Positions 3,031-7,331 of a DNA stretch of 8,286 nucleotides are shown piece by piece. The stretch's first letter is position 1, and each line of letters begins with the position of its first letter. The notes under the pieces are model-generated. The model saw nothing but the letters and a program-made list of their open reading frames with translations. It had not been told where the DNA came from and did no database searches. The position numbers were made by a program, and so were the translations under genes. The DNA comes from Candidatus Latescibacterota bacterium (lineage in GTDB: Bacteria; JAAXHH01; JABIQT01). The stretch lies in the NCBI GenBank assembly GCA_018667995.1, contig JABIQT010001014.1, forward strand, positions 1-8,286, written 5' to 3'.

Positions 3031-3933
3031 ATGCTCCGGGTTAGTGTCATTACACCCACCTATAACCGTCCTCATCTGCTGAAAAAACTGCTCGATTCTC
3101 TGGTCCAGCAGAGCGTATCGGCGGAGCGCTACGAAGTGATTGTGGTGAGCGACGGGTCAACAGACGGCACGCATGCTTTTCTGGACGCCTACTGTGCGGA
3201 GCACAAAACATTTCGTTACATCGTCCAGGAAAACCAGGGACCGGCTGCTGCAAGAAACTGCGGACTTGAGGCGGCGAAAGGCAATATTATCGCCTATACG
3301 GATGACGATTGCATAGCTGATCCGGACTGGATAGGAGAGATAGTAGATCTCTTTGATACGCAGCCTGAAGTGATCGGCATGGAGGGACGGACTGTCACGA
3401 TCGATGATCAGGTAACGCCCTTCACCCATCAGGTTGTGGGCTCGGGTGAATGCTATGCCAGCTGCAACGCCGCCTACCGCCGAGAACCACTGCGTGAAGT
3501 AGGCGGGTTTGACCGCAGTTTCTTTTACGGTAATGAGGATGTGGACGTAGCCTGGCGGATCATGAAACTGGGCACCGTTGTATACAACGAACGCATGGTC
3601 ATTATACATCCGCCCATTCCGCTGACATTCATGAAGTTCGTACGGGTTCCCGAGACGTACGGTGTAGAAATACTGCTACACAAACGCCATCCTGAGAAAT
3701 ACCGGAAGGTTAAGAAACACAATCCGTTGTACGTAGTATTCTTATCGATCGGGCTCCGCTACTTGCCTGGCGAGATGATCCGGTTCGGGCGCATGTGTGC
3801 TGGTATGCCTGGCCTCTGGCTGAAGACTATGGCAGGGCTGCTGGTTCGCCGCGTTTGGTTGCTGCTGGTGGCGCCCCGACTGCTCGCCATGTACTGCGGC
3901 CTGGTGAAGGAGAATAAGTCGTATGTCTCCTGA
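3031..3933 (+). CDS. Glycosyltransferase family 2 (GT-A fold), first of a pair
   Basis: This 300-residue inverting GT2 enzyme has the GT-A order intact: VSVITPTYNRP (4-14), the nucleotide-binding VSDGSTDG (39-46, with D41), QGPAAARNCGLEAAKG (69-84), the metal-binding DDD at 91-93, and the acceptor/catalytic region with G-G-F (158-160) and E169-D170 in YGNEDVDVAWR. The C-terminal part (about 231-292) holds two hydrophobic stretches, NPLYVVFLSIGL and a longer one around VWLLLVAPRLLAMYCGL, broken by arginines. It therefore probably sits on the inner membrane and may act on a lipid-linked acceptor. AGGA (3017-3020) precedes ATG 3031 by 10 nt. The 86-nt gap before it has no clear terminator or promoter, so it is likely in the same operon as the GT4 gene. 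Its 3' end overlaps the next gene by 11 nt. Donor sugar unknown. Confidence 0.92.
   Translation: MLRVSVITPTYNRPHLLKKLLDSLVQQSVSAERYEVIVVSDGSTDGTHAFLDAYCAEHKTFRYIVQENQGPAAARNCGLEAAKGNIIAYTDDDCIADPDWIGEIVDLFDTQPEVIGMEGRTVTIDDQVTPFTHQVVGSGECYASCNAAYRREPLREVGGFDRSFFYGNEDVDVAWRIMKLGTVVYNERMVIIHPPIPLTFMKFVRVPETYGVEILLHKRHPEKYRKVKKHNPLYVVFLSIGLRYLPGEMIRFGRMCAGMPGLWLKTMAGLLVRRVWLLLVAPRLLAMYCGLVKENKSYVS
3907..3912 (+). promoter_or_regulatory. Ribosome binding site inside the upstream gene for the second GT2
   Basis: AAGGAG at 3907-3912 lies 10 nt before ATG 3923 and within the last codons of the preceding glycosyltransferase. The new start precedes the old stop, so ribosomes finishing one protein can start the next, which argues for coupled synthesis of the two enzymes. 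Confidence 0.75.
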
Positions 3934-4885
3934 CCCGGACGAGGAACAATACGCAGCCCATGCACCGAAGGGCTCTGAGGAAACTCAACGCACGGATCTC
4001 CCTCCGGACATCACCATCTGTATCGTCAGTTGGAATCGTGCGGATCTGCTGGAGCAGTGCCTCCAATCCATCTACGCAACCGAGCAGGCAGTGACCTTCG
4101 AAGTTATCGTCGTAGACAATGCCTCCGGCGACTCCAGTCCTGACATGGTGTCACGTCGATTTCCGCAGGTCCAGATACTGGTGAACGCGGATAACCGTGG
4201 TTTCGGCAGGGCGAATAATCAGGCTATCGAAATTGGCCGCGGACGCTACTTCCTGATTCTGAATCCGGATACCCTGTTGATGGACCGTACTCTCAACAAC
4301 ATGGTAGCATTTCTGGAGGATCATCCACGTGCCGCTGTGGCTACTGGCAAGGTCTACGAGTCGGACCGTCTCGATGAAGTTCGTATCTCATACGATTACA
4401 ACGACCTCACTCCCGGATTCCTGTTCCGAAACGACCTGGCTACGGTGGGCGGCCTTCACAGACTCTTCCCAGGTAATGATCGAATAGCAGCTTGGGTTTG
4501 GGGCGGTTCAGATCCTGAATTAGCGCAGCGGGTGAGTCAGGTTACTGGAGCTTTCATGGGCGTGCGGCGTGAGGCCATCGATGAGGTGGGAATGTTCGAT
4601 GAGCGGTACTTTCTCTACATGGAGGAGACAGATTGGTGTCGCCGATTCCGACAAGCCGGGTGGGAGATCTACTACACGCCGGAGTCAGCCATCGTCCACA
4701 TTTCCGAGGGCAGCAGTCAGCTCAGGACAGATCGCAATCAGCTGTACTACGACAGTATTAAACTTTACCTGCACAAACACTTCGGCTGGTCCGGCCGATT
4801 GATGTACCAGTGCCAGGAGAATCTTCTATTCGGGCCCCTGCGGCACGTACGACGGTTCCTGAAGCGTATTCAAGGAGGCGCATAG
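3923..4885 (+). CDS. Glycosyltransferase family 2, rhamnosyltransferase (WbbL) type
   Basis: This 320-residue inverting GT2 enzyme resembles WbbL-like rhamnosyltransferases. Seen in the sequence: ITICIVSWNRADLLEQCLQSI (30-50), the donor site VVDNASGD (63-70, with D65), NRGFGRANNQ (91-100), the metal motif NPD at 114-116 (LILNPDTLL), and the long signature VTGAFMGVRREAIDEVGMFDERYFLYMEETDWCRR (207-241) with the catalytic-region E234-E235-T-D237 and IVHISEGSS (258-265, H259). The first 28 residues are polar and acidic (SPDPDEEQ...), an extension ahead of the usual start of the fold. The good ribosome site and overlap with the upstream gene favour ATG 3923 anyway. It probably adds a deoxyhexose such as rhamnose, by family resemblance only. 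It ends 50 nt before the convergent Rieske gene, and no strong terminator hairpin is visible between them. Confidence 0.92.
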   Translation: MSPDPDEEQYAAHAPKGSEETQRTDLPPDITICIVSWNRADLLEQCLQSIYATEQAVTFEVIVVDNASGDSSPDMVSRRFPQVQILVNADNRGFGRANNQAIEIGRGRYFLILNPDTLLMDRTLNNMVAFLEDHPRAAVATGKVYESDRLDEVRISYDYNDLTPGFLFRNDLATVGGLHRLFPGNDRIAAWVWGGSDPELAQRVSQVTGAFMGVRREAIDEVGMFDERYFLYMEETDWCRRFRQAGWEIYYTPESAIVHISEGSSQLRTDRNQLYYDSIKLYLHKHFGWSGRLMYQCQENLLFGPLRHVRRFLKRIQGGA

Positions 4886-4935: not shown

Positions 4936-5415
4936 TTACTGCACGGTGATTACCAACTCGTCACCCTCTACTCTGGTGACATAGGATTTGAGCGGCCGGC
5001 GTGGCGGGCCCCACTTGGGTTCACCGTTGGTATCGAACTGGGCGTTATGACAGGGACACAGGAAGCGACCACGTGCAGGATCATAGCTCACGATATTGCA
5101 GGCCTCATGAGTACAAAGCCCGGACAGAGCCCGGAACACACCGGGAGAAGCCTGAACAGCGATGATAGGTATGGAGGGATGCTCCAGAAAAACGGCCATG
5201 CCAGGTTTCGACAAGGGAGCGCCCGCTGCCAAGGAAAGTCTGTAGGCGCCGTTGGTGATCGGCGCCTGCATCACCTCCATATTGGTTTTGAGTCCGCATC
5301 CGCTCAGGCTAGTCCCGGCGAGCGCTGCCGCGATGAGGCAGGACGCGGCACGGCACGAGCATCGGAGAAAGACACGCCTGTCCATACTAGTGTCAGAATC
5401 AATCTGTTCTTTCAA
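4936..5415 (-). CDS. Tat-exported Rieske [2Fe-2S] lipoprotein
   Basis: This 159-residue Rieske iron-sulfur protein should carry one electron at a time outside the cytoplasmic membrane. The cluster ligands are complete: C101-T-H103 and C120-P-C-H123, with the C106 and C122 pair that forms the stabilising disulfide in bc1/b6f-type Rieske proteins. After the second box come GPPRRPLKSY (136-145) and a terminal beta strand typical of the domain. The N-terminus has a twin-arginine motif (R13-R14-V-F-L-R), a hydrophobic stretch (27-38) and a lipobox LSGC at 37-40, so it is probably folded and loaded in the cytoplasm, exported by Tat and lipidated at C40. The start is TTG 5415, because GAAAGAGG lies 7 nt upstream, whereas ATG 5385 has no ribosome site. 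No partner cytochrome b or oxidase subunit is in view. The redox partner is unknown. Confidence 0.9.
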   Translation of the reverse strand: MKEQIDSDTSMDRRVFLRCSCRAASCLIAAALAGTSLSGCGLKTNMEVMQAPITNGAYRLSLAAGAPLSKPGMAVFLEHPSIPIIAVQASPGVFRALSGLCTHEACNIVSYDPARGRFLCPCHNAQFDTNGEPKWGPPRRPLKSYVTRVEGDELVITVQ

Positions 5416-5422
5416 CTCGTTG

Positions 5423-5430
5423 CCTCTTTC
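5423..5430 (-). promoter_or_regulatory. Ribosome binding site deciding a TTG start for the Rieske gene
   Basis: On the minus strand GAAAGAGG (plus positions 5423-5430) sits 7 nt before TTG 5415. The alternative ATG ten codons later lacks any purine-rich site. The rare TTG start may limit translation. Confidence 0.65.
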
Positions 5431-5460: not shown

Positions 5461-5479
5461 AGAAGCCGGCTTCTGCCGG
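5461..5479. repeat. 14-bp perfect palindrome overlapping a GC-rich hairpin in the Rieske leader
   Basis: AGAAGCCGGCTTCT (5461-5474) is perfectly self-complementary. It overlaps a second stem, CCGGC-TTCT-GCCGG (5466-5479); the two pairings are mutually exclusive. On the Rieske transcript the second stem is followed by CTTCTTCT, which gives a weak attenuator-like look. The element lies about 45-65 nt downstream of the predicted minus-strand start site. It could be a protein operator or an RNA structure. The function is inferred. Confidence 0.6.
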
Positions 5480-5523: not shown

Positions 5524-5551
5524 AATATACCAGCCGCAGCAGGTGTGTCAA
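5524..5551 (-). promoter_or_regulatory. Minus-strand sigma70 promoter for the Rieske gene
   Basis: Reading the minus strand, TTGACA (plus 5551-5546) and TATATT (plus 5529-5524) are spaced 16 bp apart. The -35 is perfect and the -10 matches five of six. Transcription would begin near 5517 and leave a leader of about 100 nt that contains the palindrome/hairpin at 5461-5479. Confidence 0.65.
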
Positions 5552-5690: not shown

Positions 5691-7331
5691 ATGGCAACAG
5701 ATCCTGAGACAACTGGTGACGATCCTTTGGGTTCCCCAAAGATGGGACTGGCACTATCCGGAGGTGGATTTCGGGCATCCATTTTCCATCTGGGCGTTAT
5801 CCGGCGACTGGAAGAGCTTGGCCTGATGAAAGACATTGCGGTCATTTCTGCTGTTTCTGGCGGATCTATAATCGCCGCCTATTATGTGACTGAAATGGAG
5901 ATTCGTCTACGTAGCAAGCGTGACGAACTCACAAAGAATCCTGACCTGATCGATCAGGTCAGGCTGTCTGTATTTGATTCGATTGCGACAGACTTTTTTA
6001 CGGCTCTTGACCACAACCTACGGTCCCGCGCGCTGGTCTTTTCCCCGTTTTACCACCCTATAGGATTCTTGAAGAGTCTGCGCCCTGGATATTCCCGTTC
6101 AGATCTCATGAGGGCCGAATACGATTACTGGCTCTATCGCAACAACACCCTGGACCAGCTGCCGAGTGTCACAAAATCCACTGACAATGAGTCCTTGTAC
6201 AATAAGGCCGGTCCTAAGCTCATTCTCAATACCACATCATTGATGACAGGAGAGAGACGCAGTTTCTCCCGTCAACCTGAATCTGGCCTAAACGATCAGA
6301 TGACGGTTAACGGGAATGCGCTGTTGCTTTCACAGATTGTTGGCGCTTCAGCTTGCGTCCCTGGACTGTTTCCGCCGGTTCCCGTATCGGGTGAGCTGCT
6401 GGTGGATGGTGGGGTCAGTGACAACCAGGGGATTGAGGCGCTCATCGAGAATGACTGCGATATCCTCCTCGTCAGTGATGCGTCAGGACAGATGGAGCAG
6501 GTGGATCGACAATCATCAAGTACCGCTTCCGTGGTGGGAAGAACGATGTCCATTCTCCAGTTTCAGGTCCGAAATAAGCTGCTTGATTTGCTGATTCGGT
6601 GGCGTGAACTCTCTGGCAACAGGGAGTTCGCATTCATCCATCTATTCATGAATCTCAAGGATCGACCGGATGTTCCCAGAGTGCCATCCGAGTTTATACC
6701 TGGCATAGCGAGGATACGGACTGACCTGGATCAGTTTAGTTTCATCGAGCGCGAAGCGTTGATGTACCATGGCTACACGCTGATAGACGCACAGATTGCG
6801 ACGTATTGCCCGAACCTGAAAACGCAGTCGTGTGCCGCGACGCCCATGGGGTGTCCGCGCCTGTTCAGTGAAACCGGGCCGCAGAACGGTGCCGTGGCTG
6901 AGAAACGTGCACGCATCAAAACCGTACTGAAGGCTGGACAGCAAAAGGTGTTTCTGGCGAGATCAATAATGAAACACGGTCTAAAAGCCCTATTGGTGGT
7001 AATCTTAACATGGCTGGCTCCGCTTGGTGCCTTCTATTTTCTCTGGGCAAATAAACATATCGATATCTTAACGGAACGGATCGGGATGCCAGTACTGGGT
7101 TGGATCAATGGGATGATTCCTGACTGGGTCACGTTCTTATTTTCAGAAGGATTAGGTTTTCTCAACTGGCCTATTACGCCCCACGGATTCACCGTATTGC
7201 TGGTATTGGGGCTGCTCACATACGGCCTCCTATTCCTGTCATATCTGATTATGCGGAGATTGGCCCGCCGGTGGGACATCAATCAGTATCGAACATTGAC
7301 AGGAGAGAAACCTTTGCCGCCCCAGTGGTGA
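5691..7331 (+). CDS. Patatin-like phospholipase with C-terminal membrane anchor
   Basis: This 546-residue patatin-family acyl hydrolase is predicted to cleave acyl esters of membrane lipids with a Ser-Asp dyad. Seen in the sequence: the oxyanion-hole loop LSGGGFRAS (22-30); the nucleophile elbow SAVSGGSI (53-60) with S56 as likely nucleophile, in the A-x-S-G-G form in place of strict G-x-S-x-G; and the catalytic aspartate D239 in LLVDGGVSDNQG (236-247). The catalytic domain spans roughly 15-370. Two strong hydrophobic segments follow, about 432-452 and 499-521, with a semi-hydrophobic stretch between them, and a basic tail after the second (MRRLARRW). This suggests a membrane-anchored enzyme with a cytoplasmic catalytic domain. 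It has no signal peptide. GGAGA sits 7 nt before ATG 5691. It is transcribed divergently from the Rieske gene. A role in lipid turnover or lipid recycling during glycan export is possible, but the substrate is unknown. Confidence 0.92.
   Translation: MATDPETTGDDPLGSPKMGLALSGGGFRASIFHLGVIRRLEELGLMKDIAVISAVSGGSIIAAYYVTEMEIRLRSKRDELTKNPDLIDQVRLSVFDSIATDFFTALDHNLRSRALVFSPFYHPIGFLKSLRPGYSRSDLMRAEYDYWLYRNNTLDQLPSVTKSTDNESLYNKAGPKLILNTTSLMTGERRSFSRQPESGLNDQMTVNGNALLLSQIVGASACVPGLFPPVPVSGELLVDGGVSDNQGIEALIENDCDILLVSDASGQMEQVDRQSSSTASVVGRTMSILQFQVRNKLLDLLIRWRELSGNREFAFIHLFMNLKDRPDVPRVPSEFIPGIARIRTDLDQFSFIEREALMYHGYTLIDAQIATYCPNLKTQSCAATPMGCPRLFSETGPQNGAVAEKRARIKTVLKAGQQKVFLARSIMKHGLKALLVVILTWLAPLGAFYFLWANKHIDILTERIGMPVLGWINGMIPDWVTFLFSEGLGFLNWPITPHGFTVLLVLGLLTYGLLFLSYLIMRRLARRWDINQYRTLTGEKPLPPQW

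Follow-up and report, generated by a model that had tools for sequence, protein, structure and literature searches.

A stand-alone, predicted Tat-exported Rieske lipoprotein in a Candidatus Latescibacterota genome and its likeness to PetC3

A gene for a Rieske [2Fe-2S] Tat-lipoprotein (4936..5415, minus strand) stands among glycosyltransferase genes and a patatin-like gene in a draft genome of Candidatus Latescibacterota, and the locus raises the question of what electron transfer such a protein would serve in this setting. The window analyzed here is the entire contig C172 (8286 bases), and both contig ends are the window ends; the source genome comprises 6.06 Mb in 1165 contigs and is 85% complete. 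Contamination is unlikely because the G+C content of the contig (0.53) fits that of the other contigs examined (0.507-0.55) and the nearest relative of the protein comes from the same order.

The open reading frame encodes 159 amino acids from a TTG start at 5415 or 149 amino acids from an alternative in-frame ATG at 5385, from which residues are numbered here. The longer form, also chosen in the sequence-only reading of this DNA, is favored because a ribosome-binding-site-like AGAGG (5423..5427, minus strand) sits 7 nt 5' of the TTG. Further upstream on the same strand, a sigma-70-like promoter (5524..5551, TTGACA-16-TATATT with a TG before the second hexamer) was called by consensus match, agreeing at 11 of 12 positions, and a weaker sigma-70-like site points toward the patatin gene; in total, three promoter-like sites were found compared with 0.5 expected in shuffled sequences. 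A possible leader element, called by consensus match, lies at 5466-5479 (minus strand), downstream of the promoter-like site and ahead of the Rieske start codon: a GC-rich stem-loop with a T-rich stretch after it. An Rfam search of the window gave no match.

The N-terminus, MDRRVFLRCSCRAASCLIAAALAGTSLSGC, carries the twin-arginine motif and lipobox that had been noted previously: DRRVFLR at residues 2-8 (5362..5382, minus strand) and L-S-G-C (5296..5307, minus strand) with predicted lipidation at Cys30. TatC and two copies of Lgt are encoded by the same genome. By motif, the lipobox takes the place of a retained or uncleaved transmembrane anchor, cleavage being predicted. The two cluster-binding segments on the minus strand are CTHEAC (residues 91-96, 5098..5115) and CPCHNAQF (5035..5058, with CPCH at residues 110-113). 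The alignment assigns Cys91, His93, Cys110 and His113 as ligands and Cys96 and Cys112 as the disulfide pair, and all six residues are invariant in a 7-way alignment, agreeing with the full set of ligands and disulfide cysteines described earlier. The match to the Pfam Rieske profile PF00355 does not arise by chance, as its 42.5 bits (E 6.3e-11) exceed the cut-off of 20.3. Combined, these features identify the predicted product as a genuine iron-sulfur electron carrier, lipid-anchored in the cell envelope.

Structural comparison points to a published family. The best PDB sequence match (E 1.3e-12) was 5cxm, titled 'cyanobacterial plasma membrane Rieske protein PetC3'. The AlphaFold2 model had a mean pLDDT of 79, with values of approximately 75-95 over residues 41-149 and above 90 across most of the cluster half. 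In the fold comparison of this model, whose underlying alignment included PetC3-like sequences, 5cxm (Z 14.0, rmsd 2.0 over 98 residues) and, in a tie with it, the Chlorobaculum structure 8hn2 (Z 13.7) ranked at the top, whereas lower scores were obtained for dioxygenase ferredoxins (Z <=12.5), AioB (Z 11-12) and bc1 Rieske proteins (Z 10-11). AioB, the small subunit of arsenite oxidase, resembles the window protein in being a Tat-exported Rieske protein with Phe at the Tyr position; however, no AioA adjoins the window gene, and the AioB model TIGR02694 gave 29.4 bits against a cut-off of 95.65.

The likeness to PetC3 (Synechocystis sll1182, 5cxm) extends to a Tat signal, a lipoprotein anchor, a soluble Rieske domain and the lack of a cytochrome b partner, and PetC3 has CPCHGAEF, with the same Ala and Phe as the window protein at the Ser and Tyr positions of other Rieske proteins. 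As in PetC3-type proteins, the ligand and disulfide set is complete and a separate bc Rieske protein is present in the genome. Two papers (PMC12341915, PMC9958174) describe PetC3 as a Rieske lipoprotein that depends on Tat and resides in the cytoplasmic membrane; they give it a role in homeostasis of the cell envelope and apparently no connection with photosynthetic electron transport. PMC12341915 cites Veit 2016 and Aldridge 2008, and PMC9958174 cites Veit 2016. Two cyanobacterial lipoprotein Rieske genes (L018 and L020) also have CPCHNAQF, with the same Tat and lipobox layout and no cytochrome b nearby, although this motif doubled as a search pattern and its presence in loci L017-L022 is partly due to selection. 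On the other side, the identity between PetC3 and the window protein is approximately 30%, the window protein lies on a separate deep branch, and its tree neighbors are not cyanobacterial. It grouped with neither PetC3 nor the Rieske proteins linked to genes for the di-haem oxidoreductase DHOR (PF06537) in trees built from 96-97 usable columns, in which the deep forks lack resolution. Approximately unbiased (AU) tests rejected none of the constrained placements, giving p values of 0.287 for joining PetC3, 0.245 for joining the DHOR-linked group and 0.099 for joining the bc group of the order. Searches for viral homologues found no relative, and all plasmid matches were below 60% identity, with a single one of the 20 records reaching 80% query coverage.

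Linkage to cytochrome b differs between lipid-anchored Rieske proteins and the rest. Among 63 Rieske proteins (59 tabulated at first and four that came in afterward through DHOR or Rieske similarity), a cytochrome b gene was found within three genes of 0 of 15 Tat-lipoprotein Rieske genes compared with 36 of 48 others (Fisher p 1.4e-7, indicative only because the lipoprotein label was set by hand from N-termini and the rows are related). Without the four added loci, 0 of 11 Tat-lipoproteins were near cytochrome b (p 4.8e-6). In this sample, homologues of the lipid-anchored kind are therefore not routinely found in bc operons. The window follows this pattern, in agreement with the earlier statement that no cytochrome or oxidase partner lies nearby: no cytochrome gene is present in the 8.3-kb contig around the Rieske gene, and no real open reading frame of the window has a CxxCH haem motif, the one match falling in an unused frame with a stop before it.

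The assignment of the protein to the high-potential type by the sequence-only reading was not borne out. High-potential Rieske proteins have CPCHGS.Y, and Ala115 and Phe117 of the window protein occupy the positions of the Ser and Tyr. In bc-type Rieske clusters, these two residues, which follow the second ligand pair, make the potential higher, and in yeast the removal of Ser or Tyr drops the potential by 130 or 65 mV, respectively, in an approximately additive manner (PMC12954380). Because Ala and Phe replace them here, the cluster probably has a lower potential than bc1 Rieske proteins. Exceptions to this rule exist, as a Phe-to-Tyr change in AioB had no effect on potential (PMC3758308) and Kustd1480 has a high potential despite its Phe (PMC12954380). 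Additionally, the two residues alone cannot split the classes, since the Ser is also missing from many of the sampled Rieske proteins that are linked to bc genes.

Taken together, the sequence features and the model make it more probable than not that the window protein is a small PetC3-type carrier ('periplasmic Rieske protein') of single electrons in the periplasm. The cluster would be inserted in the cytoplasm and the folded holoprotein exported by Tat; Cys30 would then be lipidated, with a short linker tethering the protein to an envelope membrane, where it could shuttle electrons one at a time between periplasmic partners whose genes lie elsewhere. The earlier suggestion of an envelope redox step not yet described was too strong, since PetC3 is already described in PMC12341915 and PMC9958174. 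Stand-alone Tat-exported Rieske lipoproteins are already known, and the window gene adds one in a poorly studied lineage. A PetC3-type assignment would extend these solitary proteins from cyanobacteria, where their function is an open question, to an unrelated lineage. The carrier most plausibly works in the redox or metal (iron) homeostasis of the envelope, a setting favored because the other Tat-lipoprotein Rieske genes of the order adjoin a DHOR gene, a gene for an outer-membrane protein and often FeoA/FeoB. Within this setting, PetC3-like envelope redox homeostasis is best supported and an iron-uptake redox module comes second.

The evidence for such a module comes from a gene set that is conserved beyond the window. 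DHOR genes were found in five genomes of the order, in five genera (L060, L065, L069, L070 and contig C287 of the window's own genome), and in all five a Tat-lipoprotein gene adjoins DHOR. In L060, L065, L069 and L070, DHOR is followed by a lipoprotein Rieske gene and a gene for an outer-membrane-barrel-like protein (OMP), the barrel call being based on signal sequences and, for L069 and L081, a weak match to Porin_O_P. The C287 locus (L095) reads FeoA domain, FeoB G domain, FeoB C-terminal part and DHOR and, at the contig edge, MSTKRQNRREFMKETVLVGLAVSTGTYACATGLKTIIPPT, with which a second Tat-lipoprotein begins; this protein, cut off by the contig end, appears from its position and its relatives to be a Rieske protein. 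FeoA/FeoB adjoin DHOR in three of the five genomes (C287, L065 and L069). Outside the order, the triad was found at L081:5606-8474, L225:2859-5720, L223:5385-8725 and L224, with the gene order Rieske, OMP, DHOR in L223 and L224 and a divergent DtxR-FeoA-FeoB set alongside in L225; the triad thus spans five genera of the order and at least three families beyond it. Along with FeoA/FeoB, a DtxR-type regulator mostly adjoins the triad in L095, L065, L069 and L225. At L228:4785-9017, DHOR, an imelysin (PF09375), a Rieske lipoprotein and an OMP-like protein stand in a row, and this Rieske protein (CTHARN...CPLHGS) is without the two disulfide cysteines.

From this gene content, the conserved DHOR-Rieske-OMP(-Feo) set appears to serve iron uptake. 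DHOR/DUF1111 proteins have been tied to imelysins and iron uptake (PMC3143127). The iron link of such Rieske genes gains independent support from Bizionia, in which an iron-homeostasis regulator controls a Rieske protein and a cytochrome c, whose locus tags are adjacent, as well as an imelysin-like and a FeoB-associated gene; the authors of that study took the Rieske protein as a bc1 subunit (PMC9478572). No description of a Feo/DHOR/Rieske/porin operon was found in the open-access literature, which is not proof of novelty. The recurrent triad is a more interesting result than the window gene itself, as the presence of genes for ferrous-iron transport beside it in several lineages offers a way to test, under iron limitation, what partner-less Rieske proteins do. 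A broader proposal, of low probability, is that Tat-lipoprotein Rieske proteins, the window copy among them, carry electrons for an envelope redox module of iron uptake (DHOR, Rieske lipoprotein, outer-membrane protein, FeoA/FeoB) that is widespread and so far undescribed; the window copy would then serve it either in trans or as a variant for particular conditions.

Whether the window protein itself belongs to this module is doubtful. It could act as a second carrier in trans with the DHOR on C287, a reading in line with the adjoining of DHOR and Tat-lipoprotein genes in all five DHOR genomes (three with FeoA/FeoB), the presence of exactly one DHOR in its own genome, the Bizionia iron regulon and the AU test for joining the DHOR-linked group. 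The DHOR-linked Rieske lipoproteins of the order also share with it a Tat motif, a lipobox and a stand-alone domain. However, they lie in operons with DHOR and the outer-membrane protein (with Feo in some) and have Ser after CPCHG, whereas the window copy is approximately 28-34% identical to them, unlinked to any iron gene and apart from the DHOR group in both trees. The C287 operon, moreover, already includes the first part of a Tat-lipoprotein gene of its own, which from its position would encode the operon's Rieske protein, and the simple story of the window gene as the relocated partner of that operon was rejected for this reason.

A slimmer chance is that the gene is a decaying, largely redundant paralogue heading for loss. 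Its only near relative, at L064:~4418-4620 (plus strand) on contig C227 of another genome of the order (G013), is a degraded copy, of which the C-terminal part alone is recognizable, with Arg for the first ligand Cys and one in-frame TGA. The two are 53% identical over 60 columns and pair in two trees (support 100/99 and 99/97) on a separate long branch; copies grouping with the window protein were obtained from none of the order's other genomes. Against decay, the window copy is intact in its ligands, signal, start region and promoter-like site.

The glycan-related surroundings contribute little to the choice of function. On the plus strand, the window encodes a PhyH dioxygenase (480-1259), two glycosyltransferases (1736-2944 and 3031-3933), a family 2 glycosyltransferase (3923..4885) convergent with the Rieske gene, a patatin-like protein (5691..7331) divergent from it, and a NeuD-type acetyltransferase (7679 to the window end), the family 2 glycosyltransferase and the patatin being given for context only. 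The patatin-like protein has a hydrophobic C-terminal region. It is highly improbable that the Rieske protein provides a redox step for these glycan and lipid genes, for example by feeding an envelope oxygenase: the three glycosyltransferases, the PhyH oxygenase and the patatin are physically close, but they lie on the opposite strand, and the Rieske gene is the sole gene on its strand in the window with a separate promoter-like site of its own. Glycosyltransferases and patatins are not known to require electrons. Because no synteny was found between the window proteins (glycosyltransferase, patatin and PhyH included) and the loci of the collected relatives, and because no patatin homologue at E 1e-15 occurs in 15 other genomes of the order, the glycan-gene setting is taken as physical and looks incidental. 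The adjoining glycosyltransferases and patatin reported by the sequence-only reading are thus real neighbors, while the functional tie that it suggested found no support.

Finally, a relocated bc1/b6f subunit, which would share its fold and ligand set with the window protein and leave a weak similarity to the bc/b6f models, is very unlikely, as the window copy has a lipobox instead of a transmembrane anchor, no cytochrome b nearby and a lower predicted potential, and falls short of both curated models (TIGR01416, 31.8 bits vs 97.4; NF045928, 37.2 vs 250). The search for cytochrome b elsewhere in the genome, proposed at the outset, located it on contig C444 directly after a bc-type Rieske gene, whose product groups with the other bc Rieske proteins of the order (support 99/99), and the relocated-subunit candidate was rejected on this basis.

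The PF00355 profile search of the window's own genome gave approximately eight places with Rieske domains. At C978 of this genome (L059:437-1774, minus strand), a fatty acid desaturase has a fused C-terminal Rieske domain. At C271 (L054:2333-11021), a PQQ-dependent dehydrogenase, a TonB-dependent receptor, a WD40-like propeller protein and a membrane protein that ends in a Rieske domain form one gene run. In an unrelated genome (L142:5298-7112), with no cytochrome b nearby, three Rieske proteins with Tat-like signals are encoded in tandem.
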